Origin: Candidatus Bariatricus faecipullorum
GTDB taxonomy: Bacteria; Bacillota; Clostridia; Lachnospirales; Lachnospiraceae
Assembly (NCBI GenBank): GCA_019118525.1
Contig: DWYV01000015.1
Coordinates: 18,008 to 82,007, forward strand
DNA length: 64,000 nt
Direction: 5' to 3'
Shown here: positions 51,720 to 60,858 of the stretch, one piece after another
Position numbering within the stretch: the stretch's first letter is position 1
Layout of the letters: each line of letters begins with the position of its first letter
Translations under genes and position numbers: made by a program
Notes under the pieces: generated by a model
Databases searched by the model: none
The model's input: the letters and a program-made list of their open reading frames with translations, nothing else
What the model was told of the DNA's origin: nothing

Positions 51720-53615
51720 TCAGTTGGCATTGCTGGCCGCAATTTTTACCCGGCTCCACAAATCGCTGATAATCTGCTTGGTTGTGGCGTTATAGACAAA
51801 GACCTCGTCGTTTTCGTTATCGGTCCGGGGGATATAGGCATTGATGCCTTCATAGTCTCCGCCCTCGCCGGAAAGCACGTCCATAACCTCCTGGTTTGCA
51901 GAGGTATACCCTACATAGCTGGAGTTGTCATAGGCCCCGTCGTAGTCACTGGCGAAGTTGATAAAGGCATGGGCCAGTTCCGGATTCTCCGCATTTTTCG
52001 GAATCACCATGGCGTCGGACCACAGGTTCGTGCCGGTCTCCGGCATGTAGTAACCCATGTCCTCATTCTCGGCCATTACGTACGTGGCGTCGCCAGAATA
52101 AATCAGTCCCAGCGCTTTTCTTCCCTGGGCCATGTTGTCGATAATCTCATCCGTTACGATTTCCGTGTCCATGGTTTCCACACACTGCACCAGCCACTGA
52201 TAGGCCTCCTGCAGTTCTCCCTCGTCCTCGGTGTTCATGGAATACCCGAGCGCTTTCAGGGCCATCATGAAGGAATCCCTCTCGGAGTCATATAGGTAGA
52301 CGTCCCCTTTGTATTTTTCATCCAGGAAGATATTGTAGCCTTCCCGCTCCAGGTCCTCAATGTCCACCTTGGTTTTGTCGTATACAATTCCCACGGTTCC
52401 CCAGAAATAAGGTACGGAGTAATCATTATTCGGGTCATAAGGCAGACCTTTTACCGCATCTGACAGCTTGTCCATGCAGTCCAGTTTCGACTTGTCCAGT
52501 TTCTGAAGCAGATCCTCCTCAATCAGACGCTGTATCATGTAGTCGCTGGGCACCAGAAGATCGTAGGACTCCCCGTTTGCCACCTTGATGTACATCTGCT
52601 CGTTGGAGTCGAAGTTTTCCATCACGACCGTGGCCCCGGTTTCCTCCTCGAAATCTCCGATGATATTTTCGCCGGTATATTCTCCCCAGTTATAAATATG
52701 CAGAGTCTGGCCTTCGTATGGACGGTCGCCTCCTCCTGCGCCCCGCAGGTTCAGGGAAATTACCAGCACCACCACAGCCATGCAGACCGTCACGACCGGC
52801 ACCAGTCCGCGCCGTTTGCCAATCGTTTCCTTTGTTCCCCTCTTTGCCGTAATCAGGGGAACCACGTTAATCAGTACCAGAATGATGGTAATAATCACTA
52901 CCACCAGGGTGGAAACCGCATTGATACTGGGGTTCACCCTCTTGCTCATGGTGTAGACCACAATACTTAAGTTCTTCACACCCCGTCCGGTGACAAAGTA
53001 GGAAATAATAAAATCATCCACGGACATGGTAAAGGCAATCAGGGCTCCGGATACGATTCCCGGCGTAATCTGGGGCACGATAACCTTCGTCAGCGCCCGC
53101 CAGGGCGTCGCTCCCAGGTCCATGGCCGCATCCGCCAGATTGGGATCCAGGGACCGGATTTTCGGCATAACCGAGAGAATGACATAGGGGATACAGAATG
53201 CAATATGCGCCAGCAGCATGGTCATGTATCCCTTCTCCACCCGGAAGGTGATAAACAGCAGCATCAGTCCGATGGCCGTTACAATCTCCGGGTTCATCAT
53301 GGGCAGGTTGTTGACCTGTTCCATAATATTCCGGATGATTTTTCTGGATTTGCTCAGTCCGATGGCCGTAATCGTACCCACTACCGTGGATACAAAGGTG
53401 GCAAGTACCGCCACACTGAACGTCGTATAAAGCGCTTCCATCATATCGCCGGATTCCATCATGTGCTGATACCAGCGCAGGGAAAACCCGGTAAAGCTGG
53501 TCAGGGATTTCCCTTCATTAAAGGAAAATACCACCATGTACACAATCGGCAGGTAGAAAAAGGCGATGGCCAGAATCATCAGAAGCTTTCCAAAAGGACG
53601 TTTCTTTTCTCTCAT
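51720..53615 (-). CDS. potC-potD: Polyamine ABC transporter PotC-PotD fusion
   Basis: 631 residues. Residues 1-258 are a PotC permease with six membrane helices and the EAA loop DLGATPWRALTKVIVPQITPGI (167-188). A basic cytosolic link and a seventh helix (271-290) put residues from about 300 outside, where a PotD-type binding protein follows (LHIYNWGEYTGENI, VPSDYMIQRLI, YFWGTVGIVYDKTKV, IPKNAENPELAHAFINF). The binding protein is thus tethered through the permease. ATG 53615 overlaps the potB stop (ATGA). The longer open frame upstream lies inside potB. Confidence 0.94.
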   Translation of the reverse strand: MREKKRPFGKLLMILAIAFFYLPIVYMVVFSFNEGKSLTSFTGFSLRWYQHMMESGDMMEALYTTFSVAVLATFVSTVVGTITAIGLSKSRKIIRNIMEQVNNLPMMNPEIVTAIGLMLLFITFRVEKGYMTMLLAHIAFCIPYVILSVMPKIRSLDPNLADAAMDLGATPWRALTKVIVPQITPGIVSGALIAFTMSVDDFIISYFVTGRGVKNLSIVVYTMSKRVNPSINAVSTLVVVIITIILVLINVVPLITAKRGTKETIGKRRGLVPVVTVCMAVVVLVISLNLRGAGGGDRPYEGQTLHIYNWGEYTGENIIGDFEEETGATVVMENFDSNEQMYIKVANGESYDLLVPSDYMIQRLIEEDLLQKLDKSKLDCMDKLSDAVKGLPYDPNNDYSVPYFWGTVGIVYDKTKVDIEDLEREGYNIFLDEKYKGDVYLYDSERDSFMMALKALGYSMNTEDEGELQEAYQWLVQCVETMDTEIVTDEIIDNMAQGRKALGLIYSGDATYVMAENEDMGYYMPETGTNLWSDAMVIPKNAENPELAHAFINFASDYDGAYDNSSYVGYTSANQEVMDVLSGEGGDYEGINAYIPRTDNENDEVFVYNATTKQIISDLWSRVKIAASNAN

Positions 53616-54454
53616 TCCTCTGCCCCCTTTCCTCCCTGGTTGTGAATCTCGATTTTGCGCACGGCCATCATCAGCAGCATCATAATGACTGCCATAATCA
53701 TGGAAATGGCGCTTCCGAAGTTCCACTCACCTACGGTAATAAACTGATTTTCAATCATATTTCCAATCAGGAAATACTGTCCGCCTCCCAGCAGCTTGGG
53801 TATGAAAAAGGAGCTTACTGCCGGCAGGAACACCAGGGTAATGCCGTTGATGACTCCCGGAAGGGAGAGCGGCAGGGTTACCCTGCGAAACGTCTGAACC
53901 GGGGACGCGCCCAGGTCCGCACTGGCCTCCAGAAGGGAATGATCCATCTTGCTTAAAGACGTCTGAATCTGGAGAATCATAAACGGCAGGAAATTATATA
54001 CCATGCCGAGAAGTACTGAGCCTTCTGTGTAAAGAAGTTCCACATCTCCCAGTCCAATCAGGCCAAGCAGCCGCTGAATGATGCCGCCCTCGCTCAGAAG
54101 GCCAATCCAGGCGTACGTACGCACCAGCATGTTTATCCACATGGGCAGGGTGACGCACAGAATCAGAATATTCTGTACCTTCTCCCGGCTCCGGGCGATG
54201 TAATACGCAATCGGATAGCCGAGAAGCAGGCAGATAATGGTTGTCTTTACTGCAATTACAAGGGAACGCCACAGGATTAACAGAAAATCCGGGTCGGTGA
54301 AAAAGGTAATGTAGTGTTCCAGTGTAAAGGAAAAGGGAATGATGCTGTTCCCCTGCTCCATAAAGGAATAGAGGGCAATCAGTCCCATGGGCAGCACCAG
54401 CATCAGTACGGCCCAGATGATATAAGGGATTGCCAGCTGGGAAAACCGTTTCAT
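53612..54454 (-). CDS. potB: Polyamine ABC transporter permease PotB
   Basis: 280 residues, six membrane helices, EAA loop DLGASPVQTFRRVTLPLSLPGV. Pairs with the PotC half of the downstream fusion to form the membrane channel. Its ATG directly follows the potA stop (TAAATG). Confidence 0.94.
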   Translation of the reverse strand: MKRFSQLAIPYIIWAVLMLVLPMGLIALYSFMEQGNSIIPFSFTLEHYITFFTDPDFLLILWRSLVIAVKTTIICLLLGYPIAYYIARSREKVQNILILCVTLPMWINMLVRTYAWIGLLSEGGIIQRLLGLIGLGDVELLYTEGSVLLGMVYNFLPFMILQIQTSLSKMDHSLLEASADLGASPVQTFRRVTLPLSLPGVINGITLVFLPAVSSFFIPKLLGGGQYFLIGNMIENQFITVGEWNFGSAISMIMAVIMMLLMMAVRKIEIHNQGGKGAEE

Positions 54455-56032
54455 TTAGTATACCCCCCTGGACATGACATGGATGTCTTCCGGGAAAAAC
54501 GTCAGACCGACCTCCTGACCTTCTTCCGTGTAATCCGTCGTATGAATCTTGAATTCCCGTCCGGTTGTGGAGAAGGTAATCGGATACACGCCTTCCTTTA
54601 TGTCCGCCGGGTCAAAATCATAATCCACGCTGATGTCCACGCTCTCATTTTCATCGCTTAACTTCCATCCCTGGGCTCCTGCCCATGTCTTCAAATCCGT
54701 ATCCAGCGCCTGGGACTCGGTAATCTCATCCACAGACTTCATAAAATTAAAGGCCATAACTGCTTCGTTGGCTTTTTCGTTCTTTACAAAGGGCTGGTCC
54801 ACCACATAGATGGTCCGCTCGATGCTGGTTCCGTTTGAAGTGGAGAATACCACCGGATACTGGCCTTCTTCTTTGGAAAGATCATATTCTACCTTTGCGA
54901 TGGAGATAAATTCGTCGCTTTCCGGATCCCAGGCCTGGGCATTGGAAAGCGCGATGATTTCTTTATCGTCCAGGCTCTCCACGTCATCGATATCCACATA
55001 GATATTTCCCGCGCTGATTTTTTCCTTTCCGTCCCCGCTGGTCACATCCTGCTCCTTGCCCACCCGCATATTCACAGTTACGCTGGTTCCGGGCACGGTC
55101 TCCACCATAATCTCATAGTGCACGCCTTTAAACAGAACGCTGAGCACCTCTCCGGTGAGCTTTCCGTTCTTTACGTCCACAATGTCAATATCCTCGGGAC
55201 GGATAACCACGTCCACCGGCTCGTTTTCCCGGAAACCGAAATCCACGCAGTCAAAGGTCAGGTCGTCAAAACGGACCTTGTAATCTTCCAGCATGACCCC
55301 GGGAATAATGTTGCTCTCTCCGATAAAGTTGGCCACAAACCGGCTGGCAGGTTCGTTGTAGATGTCTTCCGGAGTCCCCACCTGGAGGATTTCTCCGTTG
55401 TTCATAACTACAATCTTGTCGGACATGGTCAGAGCCTCCTCCTGGTCATGAGTGACAAAGATAAAGGTAATTCCGACCTCCTGCTGAATCCGCTTCAGCT
55501 CATACTGCATCTCCTTGCGCAGCTTCAGATCCAGGGCCGCCAGAGGTTCATCCAGCAGCAGCACCTTCGGCTCGTTTACCAGAGCCCGGGCAATGGCCAC
55601 CCGCTGCTGCTGACCGCCGGACAGCAGGGTGGTATTTTTATCCTCATATCCTTCCAGCCCGATGAGCTTCAGCATCTTCATGACCTTCTGGTCGATGACG
55701 TCCTTGCTCATCTTTTTAATTTTCAGGCCGAAAGCAATATTTTCATAAACACTCAGGTGAGGAAACAGGGCATACTTCTGAAATACCGTATTCAGTTCCC
55801 GCTCATAAGGCGGCTTTTTACTGATTTCCTCTCCGTCAAAAATCACTTTCCCCTCATCCGCATCCAGAAATCCTCCCAGAATTCTGAGCAGGGTAGTCTT
55901 TCCGCACCCGCTGGGTCCCAGCAGAGTTACAAACTCGTTCTCATAGATGTCCAGATTGATGCCTTTCAGCACAATCTGTCCGTCAAAGTTCTTTACGATG
56001 TCCCGGAACTCTATCAGCTTCTTCTCTTCCAT
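54455..56032 (-). CDS. potA: Polyamine ABC transporter ATPase PotA with a two-repeat Ig-like insertion in the TOBE domain
   Basis: 525 residues; PotA is normally about 350-370. Residues 1-240 are a normal ATPase: Walker [10 protein letters not shown] (39-47), signature LSGGQQQR (137-144), Walker B VLLLDEP (157-163), H-loop His195. TOBE strands begin at about 244-310 ([21 protein letters not shown]) and resume at 494-520 ([23 protein letters not shown]). Between them, about 311-493 hold two similar units ending in [19 protein letters not shown] and [15 protein letters not shown], with shared AQAW/AQGW motifs, as in bacterial Ig-like surface domains. The insert is cytosolic by topology. AAGGAGAG precedes the ATG. 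Confidence 0.93.
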
Positions 56033-56046
56033 CGTTACTCTCCTTC

Positions 56047-56580
56047 CTAAAACATGGGCGGCGTGGTAATCCAGAGAATTCTGGCGTCACTGCTGCCATG
56101 ATTATACAGATAATGGCTCTTTGAGCCATCCAGGTAAAAGGTTTCCCGTGTCCGTACTTTGTATTTTTTACTTCCCTGTACGATGGTCACGTTCCCCTTT
56201 AGTACGTAGCCAAACTCCTGCCCCTGAAAGGCCTGCAGGACATGGCTCTTCCTGTGCGGATGCAGCGTCAGAATAATGGGTTCCATCTGGTTCTTCTGTG
56301 CGTTGGGAACAATCCATTCTATCTGGTAGTCCTCCTGTTCATCCACAAAAAAATCCTGAGTCTGAAAAACAATCTGCTTCTCCTCTTCCTCCCGGAAAAA
56401 CTCGGACAGACTGCTTCCCAGTGCTTCCAGAATATCTTCCAGCGTGGCAATGCTGGGAGTGGTCAGATTTCTCTCCACCTGGGACAGAAATCCTTTGGTA
56501 AGCTCGCTCCGGGATGCCAGGTCCCCAAGCGTCAGGTCATTCTGCAGACGAAGCTCCTTGAGCTTCCTGCCGATATCCAC
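56047..56580 (-). CDS. XRE-cupin transcriptional regulator of the pot operon
   Basis: 177 residues. Helix-turn-helix at 5-60 ([28 protein letters not shown]) and a cupin domain 105-175 ([42 protein letters not shown]). Similar to PuuR-type regulators that sense polyamines or related small ligands. It is the first gene of the operon, 14 bases before potA, so it likely regulates its own promoter; the TTTAACGAAAAGTATAGT stretch in its leader is a candidate operator. Confidence 0.9.
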
Positions 56581-59442: not shown

Positions 59443-59493
59443 TAGAGAGAAGAGGCATCTTCTTTCTATCAATCAAATATGGAGGAAAACACC

Positions 59494-60858
59494 ATGGGTA
59501 TTACAAATTCTAATAAACAGACCGACGCACACCAGATAGGCTGTGACGGCACTCTGAAAGTAACCCTTGCGCTTTCCGCTGCTCCTGATATTGTGTCCAA
59601 TCCCACAGACATCGTTCTGGTCCTGGACCGTTCCGGCAGCATGGCGGGCAGCCCCCTGGCGAACATGAAAGCCGGAGCAAATACGTTTATTGATATTATT
59701 GACGAGGCCACGGACAGTTCCCGGGACGGCGTCATCGGCTCCGGAAGCCGGATTGGCATTGTCAGTTTTTCCAGCGCCGCTACTGCTGACACTCAGCTGA
59801 TTACTTCCGTGGCAGACCTGAAAACAGCCGTGGATACGCTGACCGCAGGCGGTTCCACCAACCATGCAGACGCATTCACCGAAGCTGTGGGACTTTTCGA
59901 TTCCATGTCTTCAAACACAAAAGTCATCGTCATGTTCACAGACGGCCAAACCACTTCCGGCTCCCCGCCTGCCCCGGTAGCGGCTGCTGCAAGGGCGGCG
60001 GGCATCATCATCTACTGTATCGGACTTATCGGGGCCGACGGTATAGATGTCAGCGTCCTGAACGACTGGGCGACAGACCCTGATGCTTCCCACGTGGCAG
60101 TCACCCCGGACGACTCAGATCTGGAAGATCTGTTTGCGGATCTGGCTGCCAACATCTCGAAACCGGGAGCAACCGGTATTGTCATAAACGAAGTAATCAG
60201 TCCGGATTTTGCCATTATGAGCATTATCCCGCCCACGAAGGGAACTGCCATGGCTGTAAACACCACTGCTCTGGAATGGAAGATACCGGAACTGGGCGTC
60301 TCCGGGAACGAGGGCGCCACGCTGGAGTTTTATATCCGGCATATTTCCCAGAGTTCTGGAACCAAACAGGTCAACCAGTCCATCCACTATTCCGACATGG
60401 AAGGGAACCTGGTCACCTTCCCCGACCCGTCCGTCAAGGTCGACTGCGGCATTATTATCACGCCGGAGCCCTGCCCGGAGCCCTTTGACTTTACTGTGGA
60501 CGGCTGCGATGATTTTGTGACCGTAAACCTGGGAGACACGTATCTGGAATCCACCGGACGCATTGTCGAACTGAGTCTGACGCTGAAAGACGTCTGCCCC
60601 GGCAGGCGGACCGCACTGGCCGTCATTCTCTCGGAAGCGGACTGTAACGGCAGTGAACATCCCCGCGGGCTGAAGACCGTTACCATCCCGGCACACGGCT
60701 ATCCCTCCTGCCGCGATGTCCTTGTAAAATGTATCCGTTTCGTCCTCCCGGACGACCTCAGTGTGTCCTGCAGCCAGGGCGGCGGCATGTGCGGCACACG
60801 GAATCTGAAGGCACGGGTTATCGCTCATACGATAGACACCTGCCACAAATGCTGTTAG
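59494..60858 (+). CDS. vWA-domain protein with cysteine-rich C-terminus
   Basis: 454 residues, no signal peptide or membrane helix. A von Willebrand A domain spans about 38-220 with a complete MIDAS: DRSGS 45-49, Thr122 in GGSTNHADA, Asp150 in FTDGQ. A beta-rich middle domain (about 225-330) and a last 125-residue part with about a dozen cysteines ending CHKCC follow. The ATG at 59494 has GGAGGAAAAC in front. With the sigma-K-like promoter, a role in the spore coat or exosporium is plausible, not shown. Confidence 0.88.
   Translation: MGITNSNKQTDAHQIGCDGTLKVTLALSAAPDIVSNPTDIVLVLDRSGSMAGSPLANMKAGANTFIDIIDEATDSSRDGVIGSGSRIGIVSFSSAATADTQLITSVADLKTAVDTLTAGGSTNHADAFTEAVGLFDSMSSNTKVIVMFTDGQTTSGSPPAPVAAAARAAGIIIYCIGLIGADGIDVSVLNDWATDPDASHVAVTPDDSDLEDLFADLAANISKPGATGIVINEVISPDFAIMSIIPPTKGTAMAVNTTALEWKIPELGVSGNEGATLEFYIRHISQSSGTKQVNQSIHYSDMEGNLVTFPDPSVKVDCGIIITPEPCPEPFDFTVDGCDDFVTVNLGDTYLESTGRIVELSLTLKDVCPGRRTALAVILSEADCNGSEHPRGLKTVTIPAHGYPSCRDVLVKCIRFVLPDDLSVSCSQGGGMCGTRNLKARVIAHTIDTCHKCC

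Follow-up and report, generated by a model that had tools for sequence, protein, structure and literature searches.

The PotA protein encoded in the window (the whole stretch of 64,000 nucleotides that was analysed) is almost certainly a MalK-type importer ATPase in which two predicted Ig-like units, arranged in tandem, interrupt the C-terminal TOBE/regulatory domain. The ABC_tran and TOBE_2 domains expected of such an ATPase are complete once the part following the insert is added by alignment and model. Table 1 gives the features of the locus.

PotA and the interruption of its TOBE domain

PotA is encoded by a single open frame of 525 aa. It scores 560.2 bits against NF043075 (cut-off 550) and 371.7 against TIGR01187 (cut-off 355.6), and its score of 410.7 against NF006987, the E. 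coli-type equivalog (PRK09452 PotA), lies below the cut-off of 482; two of the curated sequence models for PotA thus recognize it and NF006987 misses it. On this basis, it is predicted to be the ATPase of a polyamine importer, with spermidine/putrescine as the substrate named by the family annotation. PotA of the E. coli PotABCD system (8y5f, 8zx1) shares the nucleotide-binding domain (NBD), the regulatory domain, and the spermidine/putrescine family models, but lacks the insert. The ATPase motifs are intact in the translated NBD, which has [22 protein letters not shown] as well as the H-loop histidine. The operon with PotB, PotC, and PotD is present: a PF00528 permease lies 3' of PotA, followed by a fusion of PF00528 and PF13416, which measures 631 aa when counted from the ATG at 53615. 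Elsewhere in the window, positions 59479-60858 hold a 459-aa frame with an acidic stretch of net charge -23 over 178 residues; it includes a VLDRSGSMAG stretch that, by eye, resembles a von Willebrand A-type domain.

Table 1. Features of the PotA locus, with positions in the window and residues of PotA.
Feature	PotA residues	Position	Strand	Basis
PotA, ABC ATPase of predicted spermidine/putrescine importer, 525 aa including insert		54458..56032 plus stop	minus	NF043075, TIGR01187, PF00005, PF08402
Nucleotide-binding domain	1-240	55313..56032	minus	PF00005 at residues 22-165, profile 1-137/137
TOBE, first part	275-312	55097..55210	minus	PF08402 match starts at 275; boundary by alignment
Insert, replacing two-residue turn of insert-free PotAs	313-490	54563..55096	minus	Alignment with insert-free relatives; model
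Predicted Ig-like unit 1	334-411	54800..55033	minus
Predicted Ig-like unit 2	422-499	54536..54769	minus	hhalign homology to unit 1; model secondary structure
TOBE, second part	491-521	54470..54562	minus	Aligns with end of insert-free PotAs; VIA alignment to 8y5f_A reaches residue 522
PotB-type permease, directly downstream of PotA		53612..54454	minus	PF00528
PotC-PotD fusion (permease and substrate-binding protein)		51720..53615	minus	PF00528 and PF13416 on one frame
HTH-cupin regulator, directly upstream of PotA		56047..56580	minus	PF01381 and PF07883

Several lines of evidence locate the interruption. PF08402 (TOBE_2) matches PotA residues 275-329 above its cut-off, over profile positions 1-57 of 76 only, and in two sister PotAs lacking the insert, the C-terminal parts are matched over 1-76 of 76. 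In the alignment, insert-bearing and insert-free proteins match as far as 'HYExxVET' and resume their match at the strand 'REFKIHTTD'; two residues separate 'VET' from 'RxYxIHTTD' in the sister clade, against about 178 in the window PotA. The initial annotation had described a TOBE domain interrupted at residues 311-493 of a continuous frame with intact ATPase motifs. This description stands, with boundaries at residues 313-490 (54563-55096), within a few residues of those proposed. The AlphaFold2 model of the full chain (78 sequences, mean pLDDT 85.1, pTM 0.64) aligns with E. coli PotA 8y5f_A over 343/360 residues (2.2 A, 44% identity, model range 4-522) and with Thermus FbpC 9j4r_B over 338/340 residues (2.1 A). 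With both alignments running from residue 1-4 to 522, the predicted structure is that of an ordinary PotA core closing around the insert.

Predicted fold of the insert and exported-looking kin

The presence of two similar tandem units, also proposed at the outset, was confirmed with unit profiles cut from 78 aligned PotAs: residues 333-413 and 418-500 match each other with an hhalign probability of 97.8 (E 9.2e-13, 68 columns), and comparisons with the TOBE stretch and with an NBD stretch gave 0.35 and 0.36, respectively. Because the probability for unit 1 against the TOBE stretch is only 0.35%, the insert is ruled out as an ordinary extra TOBE domain. In the models, both units repeat the same order of secondary structure (strand, two short helices, strands, final hairpin), and the model of residues 305-499 (pLDDT 88.7, pTM 0.69) adopts an Ig-like beta-sandwich fold. 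The final strand of unit 2 (about 491-499) seems to double as the returning TOBE strand, judging from the alignment and the insert model.

No Ig family appeared in a Pfam scan of the insert at E up to 1, the sole entry being a chance match to TcpQ (E 0.078); a scan of NCBIfam gave no match, nor did PDB sequences at E up to 1. Foldseek run on the insert without a second aligner returned one match at E under 0.001, and TM-scores were low. The insert shares 12-24% identity (three rows) with the Ig-like domain of Internalin K (4l3a), the INT domains of Clostridium perfringens ZmpB (7jrm, 7jrl), and a Big_3 domain (2kpn). These domains belong to surface or secreted proteins, whereas the insert lies within a cytosolic ATPase.

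Relatives of the units outside PotA were sought with a single-unit model, which matched 10 of the 150 family genomes at E up to 0.01. In eight of the 10, the PotA frame holds two matches. Genome G020 has five, in a 2841-aa frame (L014), and G077 has one, in a 237-aa frame (L163/L196; 8.2e-12). The part of the G020 protein that was examined contains PF16403 surface Ig-like domains (1.3e-29), with which at least five insert-related units alternate, outside the PF16403 stretches; the protein's C-terminus is a YPKTG tail resembling a sorting signal (Gram_pos_anchor E 0.029, below its cut-off). The G077 protein has no Pfam match of note; read by eye, its start is signal-peptide-like and a hydrophobic segment lies near its end. 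Both non-PotA relatives found therefore look exported. No export signal was seen in the chain of the window PotA.

The predicted model and these exported-looking kin uphold the initial assignment of the units to the Ig-like fold of bacterial surface proteins. The same annotation considered such a fold odd on a cytosolic ATPase, and for this there is a precedent: in an excerpt of PMC6286764, Wzt, the ABC ATPase of O-antigen export, also carries an Ig-like beta-sandwich. The Wzt domain differs from the insert in that it belongs to an exporter, is single, is appended at the C-terminus, and binds glycan. Wzt-C (2r5o) is absent among the 50 structure-search matches listed for the insert, which excludes nothing. 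Ig-like domains on ABC ATPases are thus already known (Wzt, same excerpt), as are regulatory add-ons to importer ATPases. For an Ig-like insert in PotA, or for a tandem Ig-like pair inside the TOBE domain of a polyamine importer, no earlier report was found in the open-access literature searched, subscription papers being outside its scope.

Distribution, origin, and constraint

The genome samples were drawn evenly from each taxon and are not complete. In the family sample, a PotA-like protein turned up in 103/150 genomes when the NBD part was searched (E up to 1e-115): eight carry the insert, one is cut by a contig end before the insert position (G022), 10 are long frames (463-523 aa) with a different enlargement, and 84 are frames of 332-434 aa, which were taken as insert-free and 29 of which were read. 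A search with the insert sequence matched 9/150 genomes, eight in PotA (own genome included) and one in the G020 protein. Across the order, the insert model was matched over its whole or nearly whole length, both units included, in 52/246 genomes, from the own family and from two others (f3 and f4). The class sample yielded 3/391 genomes with the insert (own, one f3, one f4), and the phylum sample, searched with the single-unit model, 3/348 (own, G1000, and G1077). The latter two belong to other classes of the phylum and have both units in a PotA frame of 525 or 529 aa (L217, L218). The best 80 of 509 confirmed loci in a scan of named genomes are mostly from Lachnospiraceae, e.g. Mediterraneibacter, Claveliimonas, and Faecalicatena. 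In a protein database, the insert region had 2415 matches at E up to 0.001, of which the best 120 were listed; the protein searches as a whole cover the best 120 of 2415, 2051, and 2738 matches, with PotA identity checked for part of them only.

In a tree of 73 PotAs built from the first 300 residues, which leaves the insert out, 34/34 insert-bearers fall on one side of a branch (support 100/96) and adjoin a group of 10 insert-free PotAs (99/99). When the presence of the insert is mapped on this tree, a single change suffices and none of the sampled rows shows a loss, which fits a single gain of the insert among the PotA relatives sampled. The PotAs of G1000 and G1077 fall among the f3 rows, which makes horizontal transfer likely.

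Mean pairwise identity among 88 PotAs is 0.92 in the NBD, 0.86 and 0.84 in the regulatory parts before and after the insert, and 0.76 in the insert. As estimated from six disjoint close pairs (out of 67 genes), dN/dS is 0.025 in the insert, 0.027 in the rest of the regulatory domain, and 0.013 in the NBD. On these sequence estimates, the insert is under strong purifying selection, equal to that on the rest of the regulatory domain, which argues that the insert is not passive baggage. Positions with one residue in at least 95% of 34 rows number 26 in unit 2 and 17 in unit 1; the invariant positions of the insert mostly resemble fold-core residues (W, Y, F, G, A), and no clear ligand pocket was identified, which counts against polyamine as a signal.

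The second way in which PotA has been enlarged is found in ten family proteins (L135-L144; genomes G131, G075, G129, G092, G061, G009, G034, G052, G081, and G116), which form a clade of their own (100/100) and carry a C-terminal extension of 96-139 residues without Ig units. In L135, the one scanned, TOBE_2 is matched twice. The extensions are acidic in 10/10 cases (net charge -10 to -22), so that both kinds of PotA have in common an enlarged acidic regulatory domain; in this clade, the addition is a second TOBE stretch at the C-terminus. PotC and PotD are on separate frames at 9/10 of these loci, the tenth being without a call. Since a long PotA arises in two ways, length alone is no marker of the Ig-like insert.

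Possible roles of the insert

The insert is tentatively read here as a regulatory arm, acidic and cytosolic, by which the ATPase would be held back, with polyamine as the signal. This reading is favoured because the insert is acidic and sits on the regulatory domain, where the ATPases of other importers carry feedback or partner sites. The net charge of the insert averages -19.9 (range -15 to -28) and is negative in 33/33 insert-bearing PotAs, the count leaving out L152 at a contig end; in the window PotA it is -23 (residues 313-490). The rest of the regulatory domain has a charge of -10.3 in insert-bearers, and in 29 PotAs without the insert the entire regulatory domain has one of -8.0; the insert thus shifts the charge of the domain from about -10 to about -30. 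According to PMC11414716, ATP binding turns the regulation domain of E. coli PotA by about 15 degrees and the ATPase activity of PotABC falls with spermidine; the authors suggest that a strongly negative PotA surface binds spermidine and locks the transporter, adding that further investigation is needed. An excerpt of PMC10710835 describes MetNI and ModBC as trans-inhibited via the C-terminal domains of their ATPases, and MalK as inhibited by EIIA-Glc. Substrate feedback likewise comes from the C2 domain of MetN and the regulatory domain of ModC, both at the C-terminus of importer ATPases (same excerpt), but they have other folds and are appended, whereas the insert lies inside a TOBE turn.

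If the insert is such an arm, it would sit on the part of PotA that rotates during the ATP cycle, the same part where feedback or partner-binding sites are located in other importers. A polycation or partner bound to the arm would then limit this rotation, and high internal polyamines might restrain the ATPase through it. The separate, also acidic enlargement of the regulatory domain in the L135-L144 clade counts for a regulatory reading. Against polyamine as the signal, acidity is common in the window, where a net charge of -20 or lower is reached by 5.9% of all 178-residue stretches and PotA ranks only fourth among 54 crudely called genes by its most acidic stretch of this length. Insert-free PotAs, the majority in the sampled family (about 84/103), also manage without the insert; the role of polyamines in E. 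coli itself needs more work according to the authors (PMC11414716); and the additional conservation of unit 2 (26 positions versus 17) suits docking at least as well. A fuller scenario, in which a cytosolic importer ATPase acquired a tandem Ig-like module of surface type on one occasion and accommodated it in a TOBE turn, where it became a polyamine-sensing brake that spread through Lachnospirales and reached two or more families beyond its class, is speculative and, taken as a whole, rather unlikely.

Ig-like domains are common binding modules, and it is possible, if somewhat doubtful, that the pair instead docks a cytosolic protein, such as a regulator, a polyamine-metabolism enzyme, or a second transporter. 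This reading ranks closely behind that of a polyamine-responsive arm. It would account for a stretch of unit 2 (L443, T445, D446, K448, T449, W450, and A451) that is conserved at 95% or more in 34 rows, is partly polar, and is kept beyond the apparent needs of the fold, and it has a precedent in EIIA-Glc on MalK (PMC10710835, excerpt). However, no neighbour gene specific to insert-bearing loci was found in a comparison confined to the HTH-cupin gene. This gene lies upstream of PotA at 36/80 named insert loci (best 80 of 509) and 6/18 f3/f4 insert loci, and also at 2/4 sister and 4/5 other insert-free loci. It is absent despite visible room at 42/80 named, 2/18 f3/f4, 1/5 other insert-free, and 2/10 TOBE-extension loci, the rest being at locus ends.

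A ligand-free mechanical brace, between two PotA subunits or between the regulatory domain and the NBD, is quite improbable. According to an excerpt of PMC2896483, the ATPase dimers of MalK and FbpC have the TOBE-type regulatory domain at their base, which places the insert suitably, and both units are always present in the insert-model matches of the order (52/52). Yet their relative placement is unsure (pTM 0.64 for the full chain, 0.69 for the insert), and their strong negative charge would make two like arms repel each other.

A coupling of the ATPase to the PotC-PotD fusion through the insert, as first suggested, is very unlikely. The two traits do occur together locally, in the window and at 74/80 named insert loci (best 80 of 509; the other six lie at contig ends), but the association breaks down as a general rule: among f3/f4 insert loci, 16/18 of those resolved have separate PotC and PotD and 2/18 are fused (a 19th is without a call), and 4/9 insert-free loci are fused. 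The traits are therefore separable both ways. Moreover, by the established topology, the fused PotD lies outside the membrane and the ATPase inside. Finally, a broken gene, a frameshift, or an assembly artefact is practically excluded by the 52/52 order-sample rows without internal stop, by the 80 named loci (best 80 of 509 confirmed) at which one match spans residues 1, 4, or 6 to 521-525, and by the dN/dS of 0.025.

For anaerobic gut-type Firmicutes, PotABCD is usually named as the route of polyamine uptake from homology alone. In a large clade of PotA proteins, the regulatory domain has been rebuilt with two predicted Ig-like domains, which escape the models of both Pfam and NCBIfam. Thanks to the clean insertion point and the insert-free sisters, natural PotAs with and without the insert can be compared directly. 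If the insert does regulate the ATPase, it would represent a new kind of feedback arm for ABC importers and would indicate how repeat modules from outside the cell can be put to new use in the cytosol.
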